Notes under the pieces: model-generated | Databases searched by the model: none | Told to the model about the DNA's origin: nothing | The model's input: only the letters and a program-made list of their open reading frames with translations | Part shown: piece by piece, positions 20,010 to 30,751 of the stretch | How the letters are laid out: every line of letters begins with the position of its first letter | Numbering within the stretch: the first letter of the stretch is position 1 | DNA from: Thermofilum sp. NZ13 | GTDB lineage: Archaea; Thermoproteota; Thermoprotei; Thermofilales; Thermofilaceae | NCBI GenBank assembly: GCA_002855745.1 | Contig: NDWX01000011.1 | Span: forward strand, 1-53,686 | Direction: 5' to 3' | Length of the DNA stretch: 53,686 nucleotides | Program-made: the position numbers and the translations under genes

Positions 20010-22447
20010 GCTCCCACCCTCATGACCCTAACGGTAGAGTTAAGACCAGTTGAACCGTTCAGGGGCTCGAGCCAGCTTAGAGTGAACTTGTTGGGGTTGA
20101 TGCCCTCCTTCATGACCTCGTACTCCCCGCTTATCAGCTTCGACGTCCTGCCTCCGGCTCTGTTGTAGACGAATAGGACGCCCTCGCGGACGCGGTTCGT
20201 CACCCTAACGCGCGCCCTCTGCTTGACTCCGTTGTCGAGGCCCTCGAGCTCGATCAGGTCCCCGTCCCTTATACCCAGGCGCTCGGCGTCCTTCGGGTTC
20301 ATCCAGACCCTCCTGTCGGCGAGGAAGATAATGTTCTTCGTCCAAACCGCGTGCACGGTCACGAACTGGTCCCGGCCGTTCACGAGGTAGAACTCGTTGG
20401 GGGCTGTGGGCTTCTTGTAGGGCGGAGGCTTCCACTTCGGCAGCGGGTCGTCCTTGTACTGGAGGGCGCGGAGGCTGTAAATCTCCACGAGACCGCTGGG
20501 TGTACCGAGCGTCCCGGGCCCGGCCTTCGGCGTCCACTGCTTGAACACGTAGAAGCCCTTCGTCTCCAGGGCTTTCTCGATCTCCTCCACCGGCACGTTC
20601 CAGCCCTTGGACAGGCTCTCCAGGACCTTCTTCTTCACCAGGATCTCGAACTCCTCGAAGTTGTGATAGTCAGCGTACTTCTCCGTGTAGCCGACCGCTG
20701 CCGCCCTGTCGGGGACTGTGCGCCTGACGATCTCCATCATGATCCAGAAGCCGTTCCTTGCGTCGACTCCGGGCGGCGGGTCGAGAACCTTGTGGGAGAG
20801 CTGTATGGCGGCATGCGGCGTCCACTTCACCGTCGCCAGCTCCTCGCGCTCGAGGTAGATGTTGTCGGGGAGCACGTAGTCCGCCCAGTCGACGCTGTCG
20901 TTTGGCACGACGTCTATCACAACGACGAGGTCGAGCTTCTTCAGCGCCTCGATGAGCTTCTGGGTGTTCACGTCCCGGGTGAAGGGCTCCGTGCCGACGA
21001 TGAAGAGGGCCTTGACGGGGTACGGCTGGCTGGTCAGCACCGCGTCTAGAACGGCGTCGAAGACGTGCGGGACGGCGGGGTACTTCAGCGTGTCGATCCT
21101 CTTCGCCGTGATCGGGGGCAGCGTGCCGCCCGTGATCGTTGTCACCTTGTCGGCCGCCGCTGTGGCTGAGGCGGGGAACTTCGCGCCCAGCTGGATGTAG
21201 AGGCCTCCCCTCGTCTCTATGCTTCCGACGAGCGCGTTCAGGGTGAGCGCTGCCCTGAATGCGTCGGAGTCGTTGGCGTTCTTCGAACTCCACCAGCCGT
21301 CCTCCACGACGCCCTTCGCTGTAGCGAACTCCCGGGCGATCCTCCTGATCGTCTCGGCGGGCACGCCGGTGATCTTCTCGGCCTCCTCGGGCGGGTACTG
21401 CGCGGCCCTCTCCTTAAGCAGGGTGAAGGCGGTCCTGACCTTGCCGACGCCAGGGGCCTCGCCCTCCCACTCGAGCGCCGGGTTCTTGGCCGCCTTGTAG
21501 CTCACGAAGTCCTTCGCGTCGAGGTCGTACACCATGAAGTCGGAGGTGTCCTTCCCGATGTCCTTCCCGGTGAGCGCGGAGCCGTCGGGCTTTATGAGGA
21601 GGCAGGCGTTCGTGTACTTCTTGACCCAGGGCTCGTCGTAGAGCTTCTCCTGGATGATCACGTGTATCATGGAGAGCAGGAAGGCGGCGTCGGTCCCGGG
21701 TATGATCGGGACCCACTCGGCCTCGGACATCGCGGCGTTGCCCATCCTCGGGTCAACGAACACCAACTTCACGCCCCTCTCGCGGGCCTTCTGAAGCCTC
21801 TGAACCATCCCCATCGCGGCGTTCAGGACCCTGCCGACGAACACTATGTAGCGGGCGTTCTCGTAGTCGGGGTCCACGGCGGGCGGGCCTCCGGCGGCGA
21901 GCACGAGCTGCCGGGCGTAGGTGGAGGCGTTGTGGCAACAGGAGGCGTGCTGGATTATGTTGGGGGTGCCTAGAGTGTAGGCTATGAGCGGCAGGTGCCA
22001 CGCGTAGAAGTCGTGGTACGTGAACACGACGCTCTCGGGCCCGTACTTGGATATTATCTCCTTCAGCTTCTGCGTGATCTCGTTGAGGGCGGTGTCCCAG
22101 TCGACCTCCTGGAACTTAGCCTCGCCCCTCTCGCCGACCCTCTTAAGCGGCTTCTTCAGCCGGAGGGGGTGGTTCCAGAGCTGGATGGACGAGGCCGCCC
22201 TAGCGCAGAGGCCCGGCTGGGGGTGCTCCGGGTTGGGCTCAAAGTACATGGTCCCGTTCCTCTTGACGAAGTACAGCCCGCAACCGGCGCCGCACATGTT
22301 GCACATCACGGGGGCTTTCTCCTCAGCCGCGAGGCTCTGGGGCTGGCTTGGAGGCTTCACGACAAGGCTTACGGGCCACTTAACGGCCGTGGCCGCGGCG
22401 AGGAAGGCGCCGAGCTTGATGGCGTCCCTCCTTGTGATCTCCGTCAT
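20006..22447 (-). CDS. Molybdopterin oxidoreductase catalytic subunit (sulfur/polysulfide/thiosulfate reductase type)
   Basis: 813-residue member of the DMSO reductase superfamily. A Tat signal opens the protein (RRDAIKLGAFLAAATA), so it acts outside the cytoplasmic membrane. A 4Fe-4S site follows (CNMCGAGC ... LCARAA, residues ~48-83), then ASCCHNAS near residue 172, where the molybdenum-binding Cys is expected in Psr/Phs/Fdh-type enzymes. The C-terminal domain has RRVWMNPKDAERLGIRDGD, the typical pterin-binding barrel. With the Fe-S and NrfD genes it forms a PsrABC-like complex. A TATA box ~28 bases upstream makes a leaderless start at ATG 22447. The physiological acceptor is inferred, not seen. 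Confidence 0.9.
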   Translation of the reverse strand: MTEITRRDAIKLGAFLAAATAVKWPVSLVVKPPSQPQSLAAEEKAPVMCNMCGAGCGLYFVKRNGTMYFEPNPEHPQPGLCARAASSIQLWNHPLRLKKPLKRVGERGEAKFQEVDWDTALNEITQKLKEIISKYGPESVVFTYHDFYAWHLPLIAYTLGTPNIIQHASCCHNASTYARQLVLAAGGPPAVDPDYENARYIVFVGRVLNAAMGMVQRLQKARERGVKLVFVDPRMGNAAMSEAEWVPIIPGTDAAFLLSMIHVIIQEKLYDEPWVKKYTNACLLIKPDGSALTGKDIGKDTSDFMVYDLDAKDFVSYKAAKNPALEWEGEAPGVGKVRTAFTLLKERAAQYPPEEAEKITGVPAETIRRIAREFATAKGVVEDGWWSSKNANDSDAFRAALTLNALVGSIETRGGLYIQLGAKFPASATAAADKVTTITGGTLPPITAKRIDTLKYPAVPHVFDAVLDAVLTSQPYPVKALFIVGTEPFTRDVNTQKLIEALKKLDLVVVIDVVPNDSVDWADYVLPDNIYLEREELATVKWTPHAAIQLSHKVLDPPPGVDARNGFWIMMEIVRRTVPDRAAAVGYTEKYADYHNFEEFEILVKKKVLESLSKGWNVPVEEIEKALETKGFYVFKQWTPKAGPGTLGTPSGLVEIYSLRALQYKDDPLPKWKPPPYKKPTAPNEFYLVNGRDQFVTVHAVWTKNIIFLADRRVWMNPKDAERLGIRDGDLIELEGLDNGVKQRARVRVTNRVREGVLFVYNRAGGRTSKLISGEYEVMKEGINPNKFTLSWLEPLNGSTGLNSTVRVMRVGA

Positions 22448-22470
22448 ACGTTATTAAACACGTATCAAAA

Positions 22471-22480
22471 CATATATAAA
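22471..22480 (-). promoter_or_regulatory. TATA box of the sulfur-reductase operon
   Basis: Minus strand TTTATATATG, centred ~28 bases from the ATG at 22447, giving a leaderless mRNA. The adjoining AT-rich segment up to 22530 separates it from the treT 3' end. Confidence 0.6.
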
Positions 22481-22538
22481 ACCTTATGTACAGCTCTCGA
22501 TATTTTCATGTAAAAATATCGATATGTATGCGTATATG

Positions 22539-23777
22539 CTAATAACCGCATAGAAGGCTGGAGAAGAAGGCCAAGTACCTTTGAACGTGCCGAGTGATGA
22601 CGAAGTTCTCGAGCACGTGCTCCCTGCCCGCTTCCCCGAGCCTTGCCCTCGTGCCGGGTTCGCTCAGGAGCCTGGCCGCCTTTTCGGCCAGCTCGGGCAC
22701 ACTCCATCCCGTGAGCCCAGTACGCCCATCTATCACCTGCAGCTTGACCCCTCCCACGGGCCTAGCAACCACTGGCACGCTCTTCCACAGGAACTCTGTT
22801 ACCGCGAGCCCGAAGCCCTCCCTGATCGCCGTGTGGAGGCCAACGGTAGTTACGCGCTGCAGCGCGTTAACCTCTAGGTCGTGGACGCCCTGCTGGTCTG
22901 TGAGCATATGGATGTTTTCGTCGCCGGCCACGTAGTCCCGGACTTTCTCGTAGAACAACGCCCCCTCTGGGTCGTCGCGCGCCATGGAGGAGATTAGGAG
23001 GAGCTGCGTCCCCGGGTGGCTCCTGGCAACAACTCTGTAGACGTCGACGGCCGAGAAGACGTCCTTCCAGGGGTCGAACCTCGCCACCTTCGCGAGGATG
23101 GGTTTTGAGGTGTCAACCCCGAACTTCCCAGCGATGTTCTCAATGAGGCTTGAGTCGAGCGGCCTGTTCTTGTCGCTCAAGGGGTCTATGCTCGGCGGGG
23201 AGACGAGGGCGCGGTCCGCGAATTCTGGTTTCACGTAATCCTTTGTGTGTACGATGACGCCCTCGTAGAGGGGTAGCAGCTGAGAGATAAGACCATAGAC
23301 TTTTTGGTTTGGTGTGGAGACATCTATGTGGCACCGCCAAACCCATATTCTCCCCCTCTTTTTCGCGAAAAGAGGTATAGCCATTGGCTGTGGGTCGTGT
23401 ACGAGCACGATGTCAGCGTCGAGGTCTAGTGTTTCGGCGTTGTACTGGTTCCACTTCATGTAGGTTTTCCACTCCTCCTCTGTTAGCTCAACCTGCGTGT
23501 TGCCCTGCAGGGCGTTGTGGATCTTCTTTGTCACCTGGAAGAAGTCTGGCTCAGCCTCAAGAACCTGCCAGTCAGCGTCGATGCCTAGTGATCTCATGAG
23601 GGGGACCATGCTGTGGAGTATTTCAGCCACACCTCCGCCGTAGCTCGTCGAGTTTACGTGGACGACTCGCTTCCCCTCAAGCCTCGCTGCGACCTGTAGG
23701 AGCTCGTTGTAGGCGCCGTCGCCGATAATGCTCCTGTAGTCCTCAGCCCTTCTCGCGTACTTTGGCTTCGCTCTCAT
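22539..23777 (-). CDS. treT: Trehalose synthase TreT (trehalose glycosyltransferring synthase)
   Basis: GT4-family glycosyltransferase that joins NDP-glucose and glucose to trehalose (reversible in some archaea). Recognised from the N-terminus: VVHVNSTSYGGGVAEILHSM, then LGIDADWQVLEA and DADIVLVHDPQPMAIP. The retaining-transferase motif EGFGLAVTEFLWKSVPVVAR is near residues 320-340, with VARFDPWKD upstream. 412 residues is the family length. It is divergent from a trmB-type gene and next to a sugar importer, as in the Thermococcus trehalose/maltose island. A predicted operator (23781-23803) covers its transcription start. Confidence 0.93.
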   Translation of the reverse strand: MRAKPKYARRAEDYRSIIGDGAYNELLQVAARLEGKRVVHVNSTSYGGGVAEILHSMVPLMRSLGIDADWQVLEAEPDFFQVTKKIHNALQGNTQVELTEEEWKTYMKWNQYNAETLDLDADIVLVHDPQPMAIPLFAKKRGRIWVWRCHIDVSTPNQKVYGLISQLLPLYEGVIVHTKDYVKPEFADRALVSPPSIDPLSDKNRPLDSSLIENIAGKFGVDTSKPILAKVARFDPWKDVFSAVDVYRVVARSHPGTQLLLISSMARDDPEGALFYEKVRDYVAGDENIHMLTDQQGVHDLEVNALQRVTTVGLHTAIREGFGLAVTEFLWKSVPVVARPVGGVKLQVIDGRTGLTGWSVPELAEKAARLLSEPGTRARLGEAGREHVLENFVITRHVQRYLAFFSSLLCGY

Positions 23778-23780
23778 TTC

Positions 23781-23803
23781 ACTACCACTTTAAGGTAGTA
23801 GTT
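23781..23803. promoter_or_regulatory. Predicted TrmB operator between treT and trmB
   Basis: Inverted repeat ACTACC-N7-GGTAGT followed by AGTT. The same 23-bp element, identical at 19 of 23 positions, lies upstream of the importer operon at 28056-28078. It covers the predicted treT start site (TATA centre ~23815, start ~23789), where binding would repress; for the divergent trmB it lies upstream of the TATA box. Recognition by TrmB is inferred from neighbourhood. Confidence 0.65.
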
Positions 23804-23810
23804 GATGGAT

Positions 23811-23820
23811 TAAATATATT
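23811..23820. promoter_or_regulatory. TATA element shared by treT and trmB
   Basis: Reads TAAATATATT on the plus strand and AATATATTTA on the minus strand. It is ~38 bases from the treT ATG (short leader) and ~35 bases from the trmB ATG. AT symmetry allows use in both directions. Confidence 0.45.
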
Positions 23821-23849
23821 TTTATTTACGCAGGTATCTATGCGGGAGG

Positions 23850-24881
23850 ATGTCGGAGAGAGTGTACAGGCTGTTGAGGCAGGTGGGTCTCAAGCCGTAC
23901 GAGGCTAAGGTCCTAGCGGTCTTACTCGATGGGGTGCCTAGAACAGCTGGTGAAATCTCAGCTACCACCGGCGTCCCCCAACCTCGCGTGTACAGCGTCC
24001 TCGATTCGCTCAGCGCAATGGGTCTTGTGGACATTAAACTGGGTAAACCTAAGAAGTACCGGGTGACAGACCCGCTTTCCTCGATCGAACGTGTGGTAAG
24101 CTCCAAGATGGGTGAGCTGGCGTCTCTAAAATCTCAGATCCAGGAGGAGCTGAAGGAGCTGAGAGGTAGCACCTTCACCACTGAGCCTCCTGACGTCTGG
24201 GTCATCAAAAATAGGGAGGAGGCTTTAACGCGTATAAGGAGAGCTATTGAAAGCGCAAACTACGAGGTCGCAACCGGGCTAAACCTGGAGACTTTCACCG
24301 CTCTCAGCGGCAGCTTGAGCGCTCTAGCCAGCGAATCCGGGGGCGCGTCACTAGCAATCACCCTATACGGAGACTTCCTAAAGAGCGGGTTTGATAGTTC
24401 CCTCGCAAAGGGGAACTGCGAGATCAGGGTAAGACGTATCCCAATAACCCCCCTTGTAATCATAGACTCCTCGAGGGCTTTTATCCTTGAGAGAACGTAC
24501 ATCCTCGAGATAACGGAGGAGGGGCTTCTCCGGATGCTGTCAGACTTCTACTACCACTCGGTGTGGAGGGTGGGGGACATAGTCAAAGGATTTCAGCCGG
24601 CGCCAGGAAGGGTGGTGAGCTTCACAGATGTATGGCTGGCTGCAGGGTTCGTGAGGAGGTGCATGGAGGAGTCGCACACGGCTAGAGTTGTGGTGGAGGG
24701 CTTCAGCAGGCAGGGGGTAAGGGGTGTTCTAGAGGGTGAGGTTATAGACCTTATTGAGAACGGGAATGGTGTGCAGATCTCTCTTATCCTCAACACCGCC
24801 GCGGGCAGAGTGAGTGTGGGTGGTCGCGGAGCGACGCTCGAGGAGTTCGAGGGTAGAGTGTTCAGGATAACCCCGCTCTAG
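23850..24881 (+). CDS. trmB: TrmB-family sugar-responsive transcription regulator
   Basis: A winged-helix protein: residues ~5-70 carry the TrmB DNA-binding domain (GLKPYEAKVLAVLLDGVPRT, recognition helix PQPRVYSVLDSLSAMGLVDI), then a dimerising coiled coil (~75-105), then a sugar-binding domain to residue 343, including the phospholipase-D-like segment seen in TrmB. In Thermococcales TrmB controls trehalose/maltose transport and glycolysis. Here it is divergent from treT and adjacent to an importer whose promoter carries the same inverted repeat. An AGGAGG-type site overlaps the start region; ATG 23850 gives the best N-terminus. Confidence 0.9.
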   Translation: MSERVYRLLRQVGLKPYEAKVLAVLLDGVPRTAGEISATTGVPQPRVYSVLDSLSAMGLVDIKLGKPKKYRVTDPLSSIERVVSSKMGELASLKSQIQEELKELRGSTFTTEPPDVWVIKNREEALTRIRRAIESANYEVATGLNLETFTALSGSLSALASESGGASLAITLYGDFLKSGFDSSLAKGNCEIRVRRIPITPLVIIDSSRAFILERTYILEITEEGLLRMLSDFYYHSVWRVGDIVKGFQPAPGRVVSFTDVWLAAGFVRRCMEESHTARVVVEGFSRQGVRGVLEGEVIDLIENGNGVQISLILNTAAGRVSVGGRGATLEEFEGRVFRITPL

Positions 24882-24890
24882 AGAAAAGTC

Positions 24891-25730
24891 TTAGCCTTTT
24901 ATGGCCCAACCCGCGAAGCCCCTCACGTAGTATCTTCTGAAAGCCGTGTATATCAGGAGCGGCGGGATCAGCGCAAGTATAGCTCCGGCGCTTAGAAGAC
25001 CCCAGTCGATGTGGTACTCCCCTTTTAGGAGCGCGATCCGCTGGGTTATGACCCAGTTGTCCGGAGACGCTAGGAACACCATCGCGTAGAAAAAGTCTCC
25101 CCACACCCACGTGAACTGTATCGCGGAGGCCGCTATTACAGCGGGCACAACTACAGGAAGGAGGACTTTGAGCAAGATCGTTGCCTCAGATGCCCCGTCC
25201 ACACGGGCCGATTCAACGAGGCTACTCGGGATCAGCCTCAGGTAGTTTCTCATGAAGAACGTTATCCACGGAACGCCCCAAGCTGAGTGGAGGAGTATGA
25301 GGCCTATCAGCTTGTCCAGCAACCCCACCCTTGCATAGAGTAGGTAAAGCGGGATCACCACCATCTGCTGGGGGACTGACATCATGAACAGGATTGAAAC
25401 GAAGAGCAGGGTCTTGCCTCTAAAGCTCAGGTAGGTGAGGGAGTACGCCAGAAGGGATGCAAGGAGAACGGGCAGGAGCGTGCTAGCGGTTGCGACGACC
25501 AGCGAGTTCCTGAAACCTGCTAGGAGGTTGTAGGACGGGTTTTGGAGCGCCTCGAAATAGTTCTTGAGGCTGTACGTGCCGCCGATGCTCCACCAGCCCT
25601 GAAGTATGACCTCGGAGTAGGGCTTCAGGGAAGTCACGACTAATCCTACGAACGGGAGGGACCACAGCGCAGCGAAAACCAGGAGTGCCGATGAGATGGC
25701 GACTTTCTTGACGCTAACACGCCTCCTCAC
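24891..25730 (-). CDS. Trehalose/maltose-type ABC importer permease, MalG type
   Basis: Second permease of the importer beside treT. 279 residues with about six spans; the EAA docking loop is VESARVDGASEATILLKVLL then PVVVPAV (near residues 173-200). The GTG start overlaps the previous permease's stop (GTGA). It ends 9 bases from the convergent trmB gene. The neighbourhood suggests trehalose/maltose as substrate. No ATPase gene is present in this operon; the orphan MalK-type gene at 38592 is a candidate partner. Confidence 0.92.
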   Translation of the reverse strand: MRRRVSVKKVAISSALLVFAALWSLPFVGLVVTSLKPYSEVILQGWWSIGGTYSLKNYFEALQNPSYNLLAGFRNSLVVATASTLLPVLLASLLAYSLTYLSFRGKTLLFVSILFMMSVPQQMVVIPLYLLYARVGLLDKLIGLILLHSAWGVPWITFFMRNYLRLIPSSLVESARVDGASEATILLKVLLPVVVPAVIAASAIQFTWVWGDFFYAMVFLASPDNWVITQRIALLKGEYHIDWGLLSAGAILALIPPLLIYTAFRRYYVRGFAGWAIKG

Positions 25731-26611
25731 TGTTTCTCACCCGAGAGGACGCTCTTAACGTACATGGTGGCGGGTACTAGCGTGAGCAGGGCGAGGATCG
25801 TGGCTACAGCCGCAGCCTTGTTGTACTCGAGGGCACTGGCGAAGTAGTTGTACATTATAAGGGCGAGAACTGTGGAAGAGCCCCCGGGACCACCTCCTGT
25901 AGCCACGTAGACGATGTCGAATATCTTGAGTATCCACATTATGGTCATTAGCGCCACAACCAGCGTTACGGGCCTAAGCTGCGGAAGCACCACCTTGAAG
26001 AAAACCTGCACAGGAGAAGCGCCGTCGATCACAGCGGCCTCAATGGTCGTTCTCGGTATCGCGTCAAGCCCCGCCGAGAATATCGTCACGCTGAAGCCCA
26101 GCCAGAGCCACACGGAGCCCAGGATTAGGGCGAAGAGCGCGGTTTGAGGGTATATTGTCCAAGTCCTCGCCAGCTCCTGTACGCCAAGCAGGGAGAACAC
26201 TCTGGGGAAGACGCCTATGTCTGCGTCGAACATGAACCTTATGACCAGACCGCTCACAACGCCCGGTAGGACCATTCCTAGGAATATTATGCTTCTGACG
26301 ACGCTGCTACCGTATGTCTCACGGAGCAGGTAGGCAAGAACGACGCCCAGGAATAAGACTAAAGGCAAGCCGATAGCTATCCAGAGGGCATTGTGGATCA
26401 GAGCACCCCAAGGAGGATAGGGTCCAGGCTCGGGGTAGATTAAGGCTTTGAGCGGTGATTTTTCGAATATAACATCGACGTAGTTACTGAAAGATAGACC
26501 TGCCTGAGTGGTGAAGCTGAGAACCACAGTGGCCAGTATGGGGTACACGACCCAAACCCCCAGCACCGCTAGGGGTAATAGCAGGAAAATCAAAAAATCG
26601 CCTGCCCTCAT
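25727..26611 (-). CDS. Trehalose/maltose-type ABC importer permease, MalF type
   Basis: First permease of the same importer. Hydrophobic segments begin at residues ~5-30 (FLIFLLLPLAVLGVWVVYPI); the EAA loop is EAAVIDGASPVQVFFKVVL. The open frame extends to 26662 but I chose the ATG at 26611 (MRAGDFLIF), preceded by GGGGAGAGGTG. It gives 294 residues, a typical length without a long periplasmic loop. The binding-protein gene ends 53 bases upstream. Confidence 0.9.
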   Translation of the reverse strand: MRAGDFLIFLLLPLAVLGVWVVYPILATVVLSFTTQAGLSFSNYVDVIFEKSPLKALIYPEPGPYPPWGALIHNALWIAIGLPLVLFLGVVLAYLLRETYGSSVVRSIIFLGMVLPGVVSGLVIRFMFDADIGVFPRVFSLLGVQELARTWTIYPQTALFALILGSVWLWLGFSVTIFSAGLDAIPRTTIEAAVIDGASPVQVFFKVVLPQLRPVTLVVALMTIMWILKIFDIVYVATGGGPGGSSTVLALIMYNYFASALEYNKAAAVATILALLTLVPATMYVKSVLSGEKQ

Positions 26612-26664
26612 CACCTCTCCCCAGAGAAAAAACATGAAACATGTTTTTATCGTTACATTCAACC

Positions 26665-28017
26665 CTACGGTTTAGGCTGAGACGCTTCGAGCGTCTTCAG
26701 CACGCTATCAAGCGCGCCCGGGTTAACCCAGAGGAGCTTCAGCTGGTCCCAGAAGAGCTTCTGCCAGTCTCCACCGATCGAGTCGTCGAGGTCAGGCAGG
26801 ATGCTCATCCCCTTTCCGGCAATCTTCTTGTAGACTGACTGCATTGGGGGCCACAGGGATTCAACCGGCGCTTTCTTCCACGTGGGAATCTTGCCGGAAG
26901 GCACGCTGACGTGGACGACCTGACCCTCGGTTGCTAGGAACTTCAAGAAGTCGAGCGCAGCGTCAAGGTTCTTGGTGTACTTCGGCACGAAGGCGTAGTC
27001 AGCTCCTCCTACAACCCCTTTCGACTCAGGGAGTGGGAAGAAGTCCAGGTCATTGGGATCGTCGACCATGCCTGTGATCCAGGTCCCCATGAAGTAAAGG
27101 CCGTGCTCCCCCGCCCACCACTTCGTAACCGCTGTTGTCCACTCGATGGGCTCGCTGAAGTACCCTTTGGAGATCAGGGGTACAAGCTTGTTAGCGAAAA
27201 CATCCCTTACCTTAGGGTCAGTGAACCTCACCTTCCCGCTTATCAGGTCCAGCTGGAGCTGGGGGCCGCCGTAGGCTATGAGAAAGTGCTCCACGATATC
27301 GCTCTCGGGCCAGCCAACACCGTCACCAGTTGCGATCGGGTTTTTGATGCCAGGTATTCCCCTAATCTTCTCAAGGAGGCTGACGAACTCATCGTAGCTC
27401 TTCGGCTCGCTGAGCCCATACTTCTGGAAGAACGACTTCCTGTACCAGAACCCAGGCTTAAGCCACATCGTGAACGGGACACCGTAGATCTTGCTACCGT
27501 CCTTCACCTGGTCTACGATGCCGGAAACGTAGTCGTTCTCGTTTATGATACCGCTCACGTCGACGACATGCCCCTCTTTACCCATTTTAACTATCCACCA
27601 TGCCCACCCGAAGATCACGTCGCCCGGAGCAATACCGGCGGCGAACTGGACAGGCATAACAGCTGCGACGTCCTCAGCCCTCATAGTCCTGTACTCTATC
27701 TCCACGTTAGGGTGCGTCTTCTTGTAGGCATCTATGACGGCTTGGAAGTACTCGGCCTCCTTACCGGACCACGGCCCAATAACCACCAGCCTAACAGGAG
27801 CTGCTGGCGCCGGCGCCTGCGCGGCCCCCTCGAGTTTCCCGACTCGCGAGGAAAGCTGGTCGACTGTGGACTTAAGCTGAGACACCGATGACTGCAAGTC
27901 CGAGATTGAGGCTGAGATAGACTGCAGGACTAGCACCGCGTAGCCGCTGAGGAGAATCGATATGACTGCTAGAGCCAGGGCTATTGTAGTCAATCTTTTT
28001 TCTTGCTGGCTCATCAT
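26665..28017 (-). CDS. Sugar-binding protein of the trehalose/maltose-type importer
   Basis: Extracellular ligand receptor for the importer. An N-terminal hydrophobic anchor (IALALAVISILLSGYAVLVL) is followed by a predicted coiled coil (SDLQSSVSQLKSTVDQLSSR) and an Ala/Pro linker (AAQAPAPAAP), then a family-1 sugar-binding domain starting VRLVVIGPWSG. The design matches the binding protein at 2424-3935. The ATG is ~26 bases from a TATA box (28037-28047) and the TrmB-type operator lies just upstream of that box. The ligand is probably trehalose or maltose, from context only. Confidence 0.9.
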   Translation of the reverse strand: MMSQQEKRLTTIALALAVISILLSGYAVLVLQSISASISDLQSSVSQLKSTVDQLSSRVGKLEGAAQAPAPAAPVRLVVIGPWSGKEAEYFQAVIDAYKKTHPNVEIEYRTMRAEDVAAVMPVQFAAGIAPGDVIFGWAWWIVKMGKEGHVVDVSGIINENDYVSGIVDQVKDGSKIYGVPFTMWLKPGFWYRKSFFQKYGLSEPKSYDEFVSLLEKIRGIPGIKNPIATGDGVGWPESDIVEHFLIAYGGPQLQLDLISGKVRFTDPKVRDVFANKLVPLISKGYFSEPIEWTTAVTKWWAGEHGLYFMGTWITGMVDDPNDLDFFPLPESKGVVGGADYAFVPKYTKNLDAALDFLKFLATEGQVVHVSVPSGKIPTWKKAPVESLWPPMQSVYKKIAGKGMSILPDLDDSIGGDWQKLFWDQLKLLWVNPGALDSVLKTLEASQPKP

Positions 28018-28036
28018 GCTTTAAGCAACACCAGAT

Positions 28037-28047
28037 ATATTTATATG
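28037..28047 (-). promoter_or_regulatory. TATA box of the trehalose/maltose-type importer operon
   Basis: Minus strand ACATATAAATA/ATATAAATATA segment; centre ~28043, 26 bases from the ATG at 28017, giving a leaderless mRNA. Confidence 0.55.
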
Positions 28048-28055
28048 TTTCCATT

Positions 28056-28078
28056 ACTACCACAACTAGGTAGTAGTT
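28056..28078. promoter_or_regulatory. Predicted TrmB operator upstream of the importer operon
   Basis: Inverted repeat ACTACC-N7-GGTAGT followed by AGTT, matching the treT/trmB element at 19 of 23 positions. Here it lies upstream of the TATA box (about -40 to -61), a place typical of archaeal activators, in contrast to its position at treT. Confidence 0.65.
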
Positions 28079-28152
28079 ATATTTAGGACAAAAACCTAAG
28101 GATAAAAAATCATCATAAAAATTAAAACCCTTTACCGAGTACTAGAAACTTT

Positions 28153-28331
28153 TCATGCGATTTCACTAGGCTTAGTTCCCTTGTCTAATTCCTCGTGTAG
28201 AGGAATAGTTAGGATTTGCGTAGGAATTCTTTTTAGTTTAACAGGCCCCTCTTCTGAGAGGCTACCGTAAATCCGAATCTGGAGAATATTTTAACTAAGT
28301 CTCTCCCACTTAGTACTTTAAGCTTCGGCAT
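28153..28331 (-). pseudogene. Frameshifted HicA toxin
   Basis: HicA is a small double-stranded-RNA-binding-fold ribonuclease toxin. The 5' part from ATG 28331 reads MPKLKVLSGRDLVKIFSRFG then FTVASQKRG and hits a stop. Shifted one frame, it resumes as PVKLKRIPTQILTIPLHEEL and ends at 28153. Between the halves the family has a Gly-Ser-His with the catalytic His; here the bases coding Ser-His are gone, consistent with a 4-base deletion. It overlaps the hicB stop by 14 bases. The toxin is therefore very likely dead. Confidence 0.75.
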
Positions 28332-28545
28332 AGGAGGGGACTTCTATGCTTACTAGGATAGAAAAGTCTGGGTGAATATCCCATTCGCTTAAATCTTCTC
28401 CTTCAAGATGAAGATGTATAGCTTCCCATATGTTTTCTACTGCTTTGTCTAGAGTCTTACCCTGGCTGACAACTGGGAGATCAAGGCACTCTGTAACGTA
28501 ATACTTTTCTCCCTTGTAAATCCTTACGTGGATAATTTTCTTCAT
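28318..28545 (-). CDS. hicB: HicB-family antitoxin
   Basis: A 75-residue HicB-like protein (partial RNase-H-like fold): MKKIIHVRIYKGEKYYVTEC, then LDLPVVSQGKTLDKAVENI and the acidic end. It neutralises HicA. The frame opens at 28578 (TTG) but ATG 28545 gives the standard N-terminus. It has no visible DNA-binding tail. The gene is intact although its toxin partner is frameshifted. A tandem TTTACTCTAG repeat lies at its promoter. Confidence 0.82.
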   Translation of the reverse strand: MKKIIHVRIYKGEKYYVTECLDLPVVSQGKTLDKAVENIWEAIHLHLEGEDLSEWDIHPDFSILVSIEVPSYAEA

Positions 28546-28580
28546 AATAATGTGTAAGGGTGTACTCAGCTTTTTCAACT

Positions 28581-28600
28581 TTTACTCTAGTTTACTCTAG
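28581..28600. repeat. Tandem 10-bp repeat at the hicB promoter
   Basis: TTTACTCTAG occurs twice head to tail. A TATA box (CTTTATAA on plus, 28607-28614) puts the hicB transcription start near 28584, so the repeat covers the start site and could be the operator for autoregulation by a HicB/HicA complex. Confidence 0.5.
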
Positions 28601-28632
28601 AGAACACTTTATAATACTAACCATTAGTTGAA

Positions 28633-29360
28633 TTATTTACGCATCCCCCATGTACAAGCCAAAGCCAGAACTTTTTGCAATGCACATAGAAGACCTATCA
28701 CATGATATGTCTGTGGCGTGAGGGGGGCATGTAGCATTATTATGTCTGACTCCTTGAGAAGAGTTTCTAAGTCTACTAGCTGTGCACCAATCCTGGCGGC
28801 TCCTTCCGGTTTCACGTAGGGGTCAAAGGTCAGCACTCGAGCGTTAAAGCCCTTGGCAAATATCTCAGCCACACGCCCCCTATGTTGCCGATCCCTATAA
28901 CTCCCACAGTTTTTGTACGGATGTTGAAGCCGATGATCTTTCCGCACTCAGACCACTTCCCCTGCTTTACGAGGGTGTAAGAGTAGCATACCTTGCGTAC
29001 AACGTTGAGGCACAGAGCAACTGCGAGTTCGGCAACGGCGTCTCGCTCCTTGAAGCCAGGCACCCTGGTTACGATGACCCCTTCCTCGGTTGCGGCTTTC
29101 ACGTCAACATTGTCCACACCTATACCGTGCCTGGCGAGCAGGAGGACATCCTTGTTGGTCCTGAAGAACTCCTCATCGTAAGTGGGTGTGACGCTTGCTA
29201 TGATAAAGTGGTAACCTCTGAGCCTCTCGGCGAGTTCTCTGCCCCTAAGCTTTTTATCGACCTCTATAAAGTCGACTTGAGCTTGCTTCCTTAACTCGTC
29301 AAGGAGTTCTGGGGCGTTAACGCCGAAAGAGCGCGAATTGACGACAGCGACTTTGTACAT
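28633..29360 (-). pseudogene. Broken D-2-hydroxyacid dehydrogenase
   Basis: Related to glyoxylate/hydroxypyruvate and phosphoglycerate dehydrogenases. The first frame (29360 to 28830) covers the substrate domain with LARHGIGVDNVDVKAATEEG and starts the NAD-binding Rossmann fold (VGVIGIGNIG). It then slips at a run of five Gs (28876-28880); the next frame continues RVAEIFAKGFNARVLTFDPY ... LHAPLTPQTYHVI. One extra G would restore the fold. The similarity then ends, so ~100 C-terminal residues including the catalytic Glu and His are lost. It is divergent from the intact aldolase at 29445, with which it may once have worked. Confidence 0.85.
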
Positions 29361-29444
29361 TGCCTCCTCGGGTTAACGATGGAGAGAGTGTTAGATATAC
29401 GTAAGTGTCCAAACAGGTTAGGCGAATTTCAAATAACTTGACTA

Positions 29445-30242
29445 ATGTTAAAAGCTCGATACAAAATGTTCGGCAAGCTACCCGGACTCATTAAGCAGAA
29501 ACAGGTGAGCTTCGGCGCATGGGTGACTATAGCAAACCCGGAGGTTCCTGAAATGCTCTCCCTGCTCGGCTTTGACTGGCTCCTCTTTGACCTGGAGCAC
29601 GCGCCGATCGACTACCAGCACCTCGAGCACATGCTTATGGGTGTTAGGAGCGACGCGACGCCGCTCGTGCGGGTGCCTTTCAACGACCCCGTTTACGTGA
29701 AACGGGTACTTGACTTAGGTGTGGCAGGCGTTCTTTTCCCGCTCATCAACAGGAAGGAGGATGCCGAGCTTGCGGTGAAGTCGGTGAGGTACCCGCCTGA
29801 GGGTATAAGGGGGGTTGGACCTAGAAGAGCGGCGTCCTGGGGGCTCAGGACAGAGGAGTACTTCAGGGAGGCTCGTAACATTCTCGTCATCGTGCAGATT
29901 GAAACTCGTGAGGCTGTTGAGAGAGCTGAAGAGATCCTGGCGGTTGAAGGGGTGAGCGCATTCTTCATTGGGCCAAACGACCTTTCATTCTCGTACGGTA
30001 AGAGGTCCTGGAAGGACGAGGTTGTGAGGAAAGCCGTCGAGAGACTAGCGGAGGTCTCAGAGCAGACAGGCGTGCCCGGTGGCATGTACTGCTCCGACAA
30101 CGAGTCTCTCGAGTTCGCTCTGAGGAGCGGCTTCAAGCTAATCGCTCTCGGTAGCGACTATCGCTTTCTGGTTGCGGGGGCACGCGAGAGGCTGGCGCGT
30201 GCAAGAGAACTCTTGCAAGCCTCCTCGACGCTTCAACGCTAG
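29445..30242 (+). CDS. HpcH/HpaI-family aldolase (2-keto-3-deoxy-sugar-acid or HHED-type)
   Basis: Class II, metal-dependent aldolase that splits 2-keto-4-hydroxy acids to pyruvate and an aldehyde. Family motifs: FGAWVTIANPEVPEMLSLLG, LLFDLEHAP (metal/base region), VRVPFNDP, FPLINRKEDAE, and the metal-binding Glu in VQIETREAVE with FFIGPNDLSFSYG. 265 residues is typical. The exact substrate is not visible (candidates: 2-keto-3-deoxy-rhamnonate/galactarate type). ATG 29445 begins the frame; ATG 29466 is an alternative. The broken hydroxyacid dehydrogenase next door suggests a former 2-keto-acid pathway. Confidence 0.88.
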   Translation: MLKARYKMFGKLPGLIKQKQVSFGAWVTIANPEVPEMLSLLGFDWLLFDLEHAPIDYQHLEHMLMGVRSDATPLVRVPFNDPVYVKRVLDLGVAGVLFPLINRKEDAELAVKSVRYPPEGIRGVGPRRAASWGLRTEEYFREARNILVIVQIETREAVERAEEILAVEGVSAFFIGPNDLSFSYGKRSWKDEVVRKAVERLAEVSEQTGVPGGMYCSDNESLEFALRSGFKLIALGSDYRFLVAGARERLARARELLQASSTLQR

Positions 30243-30383
30243 TGCAGACAGCTCCTGTGTTGCCGGCGCGATGCCTCATTTTTAGGGGCAAAGGCTCCTC
30301 TGAGAGCTGCGCTGTCAAGCTCGCGTTTCTCGGTTTTAAAGTTTATCTACGTCTTGCTGTGTAATATCAAGGGGGATAGTTTG

Positions 30384-30751
30384 ATGGGCTTCGTTAGGGT
30401 TAGGTCAGGATATACAACCCCGCGGACAGGTCGAGGTTCGCCGACGTGGAGGGAGTGGTGGACACGGGGGCTATATACACTGTGGTCAGCAGGAGGCTTC
30501 TGGAGTCCATAGGCATTGCCCCCGTCGAGAAGAGGGTCTTCAAGGCCTTCGGCGGGGAGGTTGTCAGGGAGGTGGGGGTTGCCGAGGTAGAGCTTATGGG
30601 GAGGAGGGGCGGAGTAACCCTCATCTTCGGCGAAGACGGTGAATCTGCTATCCTGGGCGCCACAGCGCTCGAGTCGCTGGGGCTTGAAGTGGACCCTATT
30701 AAGAACACACTCAAGGAGGCGCAACTCCTCATGTTGCCGGGTATGTCTTAA
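30384..30751 (+). pseudogene. Retropepsin-like (clan AA) aspartic protease with 5' frameshift
   Basis: The body from GTG 30446 carries the catalytic motif VVDTGAIYTVVSRRLLESIG, then hydrophobic strands and the second GATALESLGLEVDP signature of crenarchaeal single-domain retropepsin-like proteins. The expected N-terminal strand is coded in the wrong frame: ATG 30384 gives MGFVRVR, while the frame of the motif reads VRIYNPADRSRFADVEG after an in-frame stop at 30401. One missing G in GTTAGGTCAGG (AGGTC instead of AGGGTC) explains it. It may still be translated from 30446 without that strand. The end overlaps the HepT-MntA gene by 4 bases. Confidence 0.7.

Follow-up and report, generated by a model that had tools for sequence, protein, structure and literature searches.

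The TrmB of Thermococcales binds TACT-N3-AGTA, and TrmBL1/Tgr recognises TATCAC-N5-GTGATA, the Thermococcales glycolytic motif (TGM); the motif of Halobacterium TrmB is TACT-N7-8-GAGTA, and that of Sulfolobus MalR consists of two ATAATACT repeats (PMC4158304). The effect of TrmBL1 follows the position of its site: downstream sites led to repression on nine of nine templates and upstream sites to activation on two of three (PMC4706686). The same position rule was proposed for Halobacterium TrmB (PMC4158304). According to a review of 2014, it is not known what the TrmB proteins of Thermofilum do (PMC4158304), and a literature search, made mostly without subscription papers, did not bring up any operator described for a Thermofilum TrmB.

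Genes and inverted repeats of the trehalose island

The window (the whole stretch of 53,686 nucleotides analysed here, from Thermofilum sp. NZ13) carries treT, encoding a trehalose glycosyltransferring synthase (22539..23777, minus strand; 189 bits to Pfam TreT_GT1, and 463 bits to NCBIfam TreT_Thcocales, under the cut-off of 775). The adjacent trmB (23850..24881, plus strand) encodes a two-domain sugar-sensing regulator that we propose as the binder of both operators described below. It passes the cut-offs of the winged-HTH domain PF01978 (67.5 bits, cut-off 25.6) and of the C-terminal sugar-binding domain PF11495 (117.5 bits, cut-off 22.2). It does not reach those of the NCBIfam equivalogs of Thermococcales TrmB (NF040851, 70.1 bits for a cut-off of 600) and TrmBL1 (NF047390, 70.6 bits for 650), and with about 70 bits against cut-offs of 600–650 it is therefore a member of the TrmB family that is neither of the two. 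The importer genes lie on the minus strand, with malE, for a sugar-binding protein, as the first gene of the operon (26665..28017; Pfam SBP_bac_1, 145 bits), together with the malF-like (25727..26662) and malG-like (24891..25730) ABC permease genes; the true start of the malF-like gene is probably downstream of the listed TTG. No ABC ATPase gene adjoining malEFG was recognised in window positions 22000–30500; in one order-level relative (G017), an ATPase-like gene (L109 3773–4858) follows malG. The minus strand also holds an ORF resembling a HicB antitoxin (28318–28578; 19.5 bits, under the Pfam cut-off of 27), with no ORF of at least 40 codons listed just 3' of it, the expected place of a HicA partner, and a 2-hydroxyacid dehydrogenase gene (28633–29360) read in two frames (28830–29360 and 28633–28947), apparently because of a frameshift.

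The initial annotation had described a 23-bp element, ACTACC-N7-GGTAGT-AGTT, at 23781–23803, repeated with 19 of 23 identical bases at 28056–28078 and seen nowhere else in the window. A direct count gave the same identity at the same coordinates, and a scan allowing up to three mismatches found only the two sites and the reverse reading of the 28056–28078 copy. Dinucleotide-shuffled windows contained on average 0.26 matches at this threshold, and none of the 100 shuffles reached three. The genome-wide motif search that the annotation had suggested located ACTACC-N7-GGTAGT at these two places only in the whole 1,881,421-base genome, and the more degenerate TAYYAC-N6-GTRRTA likewise matched nothing beyond operators 1 and 2. 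Operator 1, ACTACCAC-TTTAAG-GTAGTAGT (23781..23802, no strand assigned), lies between treT and trmB, 3 bp 5' of the treT ATG and 3' of the treT TATA-like box. Operator 2, ACTACCAC-AACTAG-GTAGTAGT (28056..28077, no strand assigned), lies 5' of malE, 10 bp upstream of its TATA-like box. The central six bases of the two are unlike.

Conservation of the element among relatives

Four further members of the genus (G005, G003, G004 and G002) have the treT/trmB/malEFG gene set. The element stands in front of both treT and malE in the window genome (G000) and in three of them, with the treT and malE promoter sites reading ACTACCACTTTTCAGTGGTAGT and ACTACCACAAATAAGTAGTAGT in G005, ACTACTACTTTTCGGTGGTAAC and ACTACCACCTTTAAGTAGTAGC in G003, and ACTACTACTTAATTGTGGTAGC and ACTACCACTTTAAAGTGGTAGT (perfect palindrome) in G004; G002 has a single degraded copy, TCTACCACCTTTCTGTGAAAGT, common to the divergent treT and malE. 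We scored each site with a matrix trained on other genomes only (leave-clade-out) against 20,000 dinucleotide shuffles of its region. Eight of the nine sites were equalled in 0/20000 shuffles and the ninth, the G002 copy, in 1/20000. The element is kept where the flanking sequence varies.

These sites place the conserved unit in another register than the one originally given. All sites of the genus align without gaps to those of the window as a 22-bp unit with inverted half-sites, ACTACYAC-N6-GTRGTAGT, of which the former AGTT tail is the end of the right half. The ACTACC-N7-GGTAGT register matches none of the genus relatives, both G005 sites being incompatible with it, and the N6 register fits them. 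Two registers can be read from the window alone because of an internal repeat in GTAGTAGT(T), the source of both GGTAGT and AGTT. Across the 18 symmetrised half-sites, T3, A7 and C8 never vary, and C2, A4 and C5 are each present in 17 of 18.

Absence of the element coincides with absence of the linked regulator. A genome of the same species in a single contig (G101) has no match to TAYYAC-N6-GTRRTA and no ortholog of the linked trmB: the 5.1 kb equivalent to window positions 23030–28173, i.e., the N-terminal part of treT, trmB, malGFE and both operators, are missing and 429 bp stand in their place (L108 5279–5707), between flanks that are 95% and 86% identical; a C-terminal remnant of treT is retained. 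Another genome (G001, 81% complete) is without treT, a close trmB and an exact 22-bp operator. Within the genus, the 22-mer with two mismatches has 12 other matches, and since all of these sit inside frames open for 68–538 codons, we accepted no further regulon target. The same two-mismatch scan over 101 genomes gave matches in 85 and was set aside as too permissive, and a scan of named genomes based on the TrmB alignment gave one weak match, in a MAG.

Four order-level relatives (G006, G016, G017 and G022) have trmB and treT paired and divergent from malEFG, with a site in the malE–trmB gap (TATCACCGATCGGTGATA, TATCACCAAATAGTGATA, TACCACCCGCCAGTGATA and TATCACTAATCGGTGATA, respectively) of the form TAYCAC-N6-GTGATA, the left half being TATCAC or TACCAC. 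The TATCAC half-site occurs in G006, G016 and G022, and the G017 site combines one half of each type. A spacer of six was found in 4/4 of these gaps, and no match with spacers of 3–5 or 7–9. The TrmBs of these four genomes form a separate, fully supported group of the tree, and their recognition helix reads PHSR(V/I)YD, versus PQPR(V/I)Y[SE] in the genus of the window, where PQPR(V/I)Y is invariant. The nearest TrmB of the tree outside the genus belongs to a genome (G100) in which the 13 kb read contained no treT-like or importer-like gene and no site.

It is thus as a shared operator that the initial reading is sustained by comparison: the element is present in five species, absent without the linked trmB, and almost without other occurrences; the unit and the motif chosen for comparison are what had to be replaced. 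We conclude that this is a real conserved element, which from sequence comparison has strong support as a putative TrmB operator whose sequence is a new variation on the TrmBL1-type motif. The linked TrmB very probably binds it. Binding by another regulator, such as a further TrmB paralog, is improbable. Other TrmB-like genes are indeed present in the genome, and one (C1:49357, 117 bits to the TrmBL1 model) has a similar helix, PQPRVYD; G101 and G001, however, keep distant TrmB paralogs without having the linked trmB or the sites, whereas site and linked trmB occur together in nine genomes, and the type of half-site follows the groups of linked TrmBs in the tree.

Promoter positions and proposed regulation

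TATA boxes and start sites were predicted from a simple scan and by visual inspection. For the divergent treT and trmB promoters, the predicted TATA elements fall in an A/T-rich box at 23808..23826 (no strand assigned), and for malE the predicted element, ATATAAATATAT on the minus strand, is at 28034..28046. In the treT promoter, the operator follows the TATA-like box and precedes the start codon, or else overlaps a GTG start, in 5/5 genus members. For malE, it is upstream of the predicted TATA, separated from it by 10 bp in four genomes and by 9–11 bp in the fifth; the scan listed no TATA-like octamer for malE of G003 and G004, for which CTTAAATC was read by eye. The operator is upstream of the predicted TATA also in the trmB promoters of G000, G005, G003 and G004. 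That it occupies opposite sides of the TATA in the treT and malE promoters is a point absent from the initial annotation. The treT GTG start of G003 and G002 (L040 7136 and L041 3280) is apparently inside the operator (GTGGTA), an arrangement that would couple the sequence of the operator to that of the opening codons of the gene.

We propose that a TrmB dimer reads the inverted ACTACYAC half-sites (core TACYAC) across their six-base spacer. Bound in the treT promoter, this dimer would lie over the start site, 3' of the TATA and 5' of the start codon, and obstruct RNA polymerase. In the malE promoter, and in that of trmB, it would sit just 5' of the BRE/TATA, the place where TrmBL1-type regulators activate. 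Together with these positions, the rule reported for TrmBL1 and proposed for Halobacterium TrmB predicts that bound TrmB represses treT, which we regard as probable, and activates malE, for which the odds seem to us even. The ligand is presumably a sugar, and a single sugar signal would then switch the expression of treT and MalEFG in opposite directions. We give a probability of roughly 0.7 to the reading in which the element is the operator of the linked TrmB and in which trehalose synthesis and sugar import are reciprocally controlled. In a weak alignment block of about 9 bits, two of the sugar contacts of P. furiosus TrmB, G320 and E326, face identical residues, and a third, N305, faces a residue other than Asn, which would speak against this reading.

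Further points stand against the reciprocal reading. The TATA predictions were partly made by eye, and a second A/T-rich box, CCTAAATATAAC, lies 5' of operator 2 at about 28077–28088; were it used as a promoter element, operator 2 would be a downstream (repressor) site in G000. Moreover, in P. furiosus the counterpart of this operon is under TrmB repression, exerted at malE from a site over the BRE/TATA (PMC4158304). The linked TrmB could repress both promoters as the Thermococcales protein does, a dimer beside the BRE hindering TFB/TBP at malE: only about 4 bp separate the end of operator 2 from the predicted BRE, and the site of the order-level relatives lies against the start codon of malE, which is a repressor position. 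We hold this to be unlikely given the constant 10-bp gap upstream of the malE TATA in four genomes, the downstream position at the treT TATA in five, and the activation by upstream TrmBL1 sites on 2/3 templates (PMC4706686). The inverted repeat adjoins the start codon of treT, which might also suggest an RNA hairpin, a reading that we rejected from the position of the element relative to the TATA: at malE the element is upstream and so untranscribed from the predicted promoter. This explanation, like chance or recombination, is highly improbable, as the central six bases differ between copies and the element persists amid varying flanks.

Across the order, control may tentatively be viewed as reversed, with the operator next to the start codon of the importer in the group with TATCAC-N6-GTGATA and next to that of treT in the group with ACTACYAC-N6-GTRGTAGT, half-site and helix changing together. 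If so, the same kind of sensor would repress import in the first of these groups and trehalose synthesis in the second. Under the reciprocal control proposed for the genus, TreT should serve synthesis, as is reported for Thermoproteus tenax, and not trehalose breakdown; the TreT of that species is reported to be unidirectional (PMC7688234), a property that would agree with synthesis and import being reciprocally controlled. A related TrmB can thereby be assigned a putative operator with two or three target promoters, and a predicted direction of control that is open to test. The series TATCAC-N5, TATCAC-N6, TACCAC-N6 and TACYAC-N6, with the matching helices, is useful for the rules by which TrmB reads DNA.

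Comparison with described TrmB systems

The element had been set apart from TATCAC-N5-GTGATA, taken as the Thermococcales TrmB motif. Half-site and spacer do differ, but that motif is the TGM of TrmBL1/Tgr. Nor are the two unrelated: in the correct register, the element contains TACCAC-N6-GTGGTA, close to the TGM, and TATCAC-N6-GTGATA is found in the order-level relatives. This makes the genus operator a relative of the TATCAC motif that departs from it in one half-site base and the outer extension and, from the Thermococcales form, in spacing as well.

The likeness to the TGM includes the inverted half-sites (TACYAC here versus TATCAC, the ChIP-seq motif of the TGM also permitting ACCAC), sites both upstream and downstream of the BRE/TATA, sugar uptake genes, and regulators of the same protein family. 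The half-site TATCAC itself is not that of the two window sites, which have TACCAC and TACTAC instead, and the spacer has six bases, not five, in the genus and in the four order-level relatives. The outer AC/GT extension is another difference, as are the two sites in this genome in place of a global regulon and the 71 bits of the regulator against the TrmBL1 cut-off of 650. With the trehalose/maltose operon of Thermococcales, the locus shares the gene set malE, malF, malG, treT and trmB; the half-site and spacing of the Thermococcales TrmB operator are nevertheless unlike those of the element (TACT-N3-AGTA is in neither 22-mer), and treT, which is inside the malE operon there, is served here by a separate promoter and a separate operator. 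Halobacterium TrmB and Sulfolobus MalR are likewise TrmB-family regulators of sugar metabolism, and the former represses or activates according to the position of its site, but their sites have other sequences and other spacings, those of MalR being about 100–140 bp upstream.
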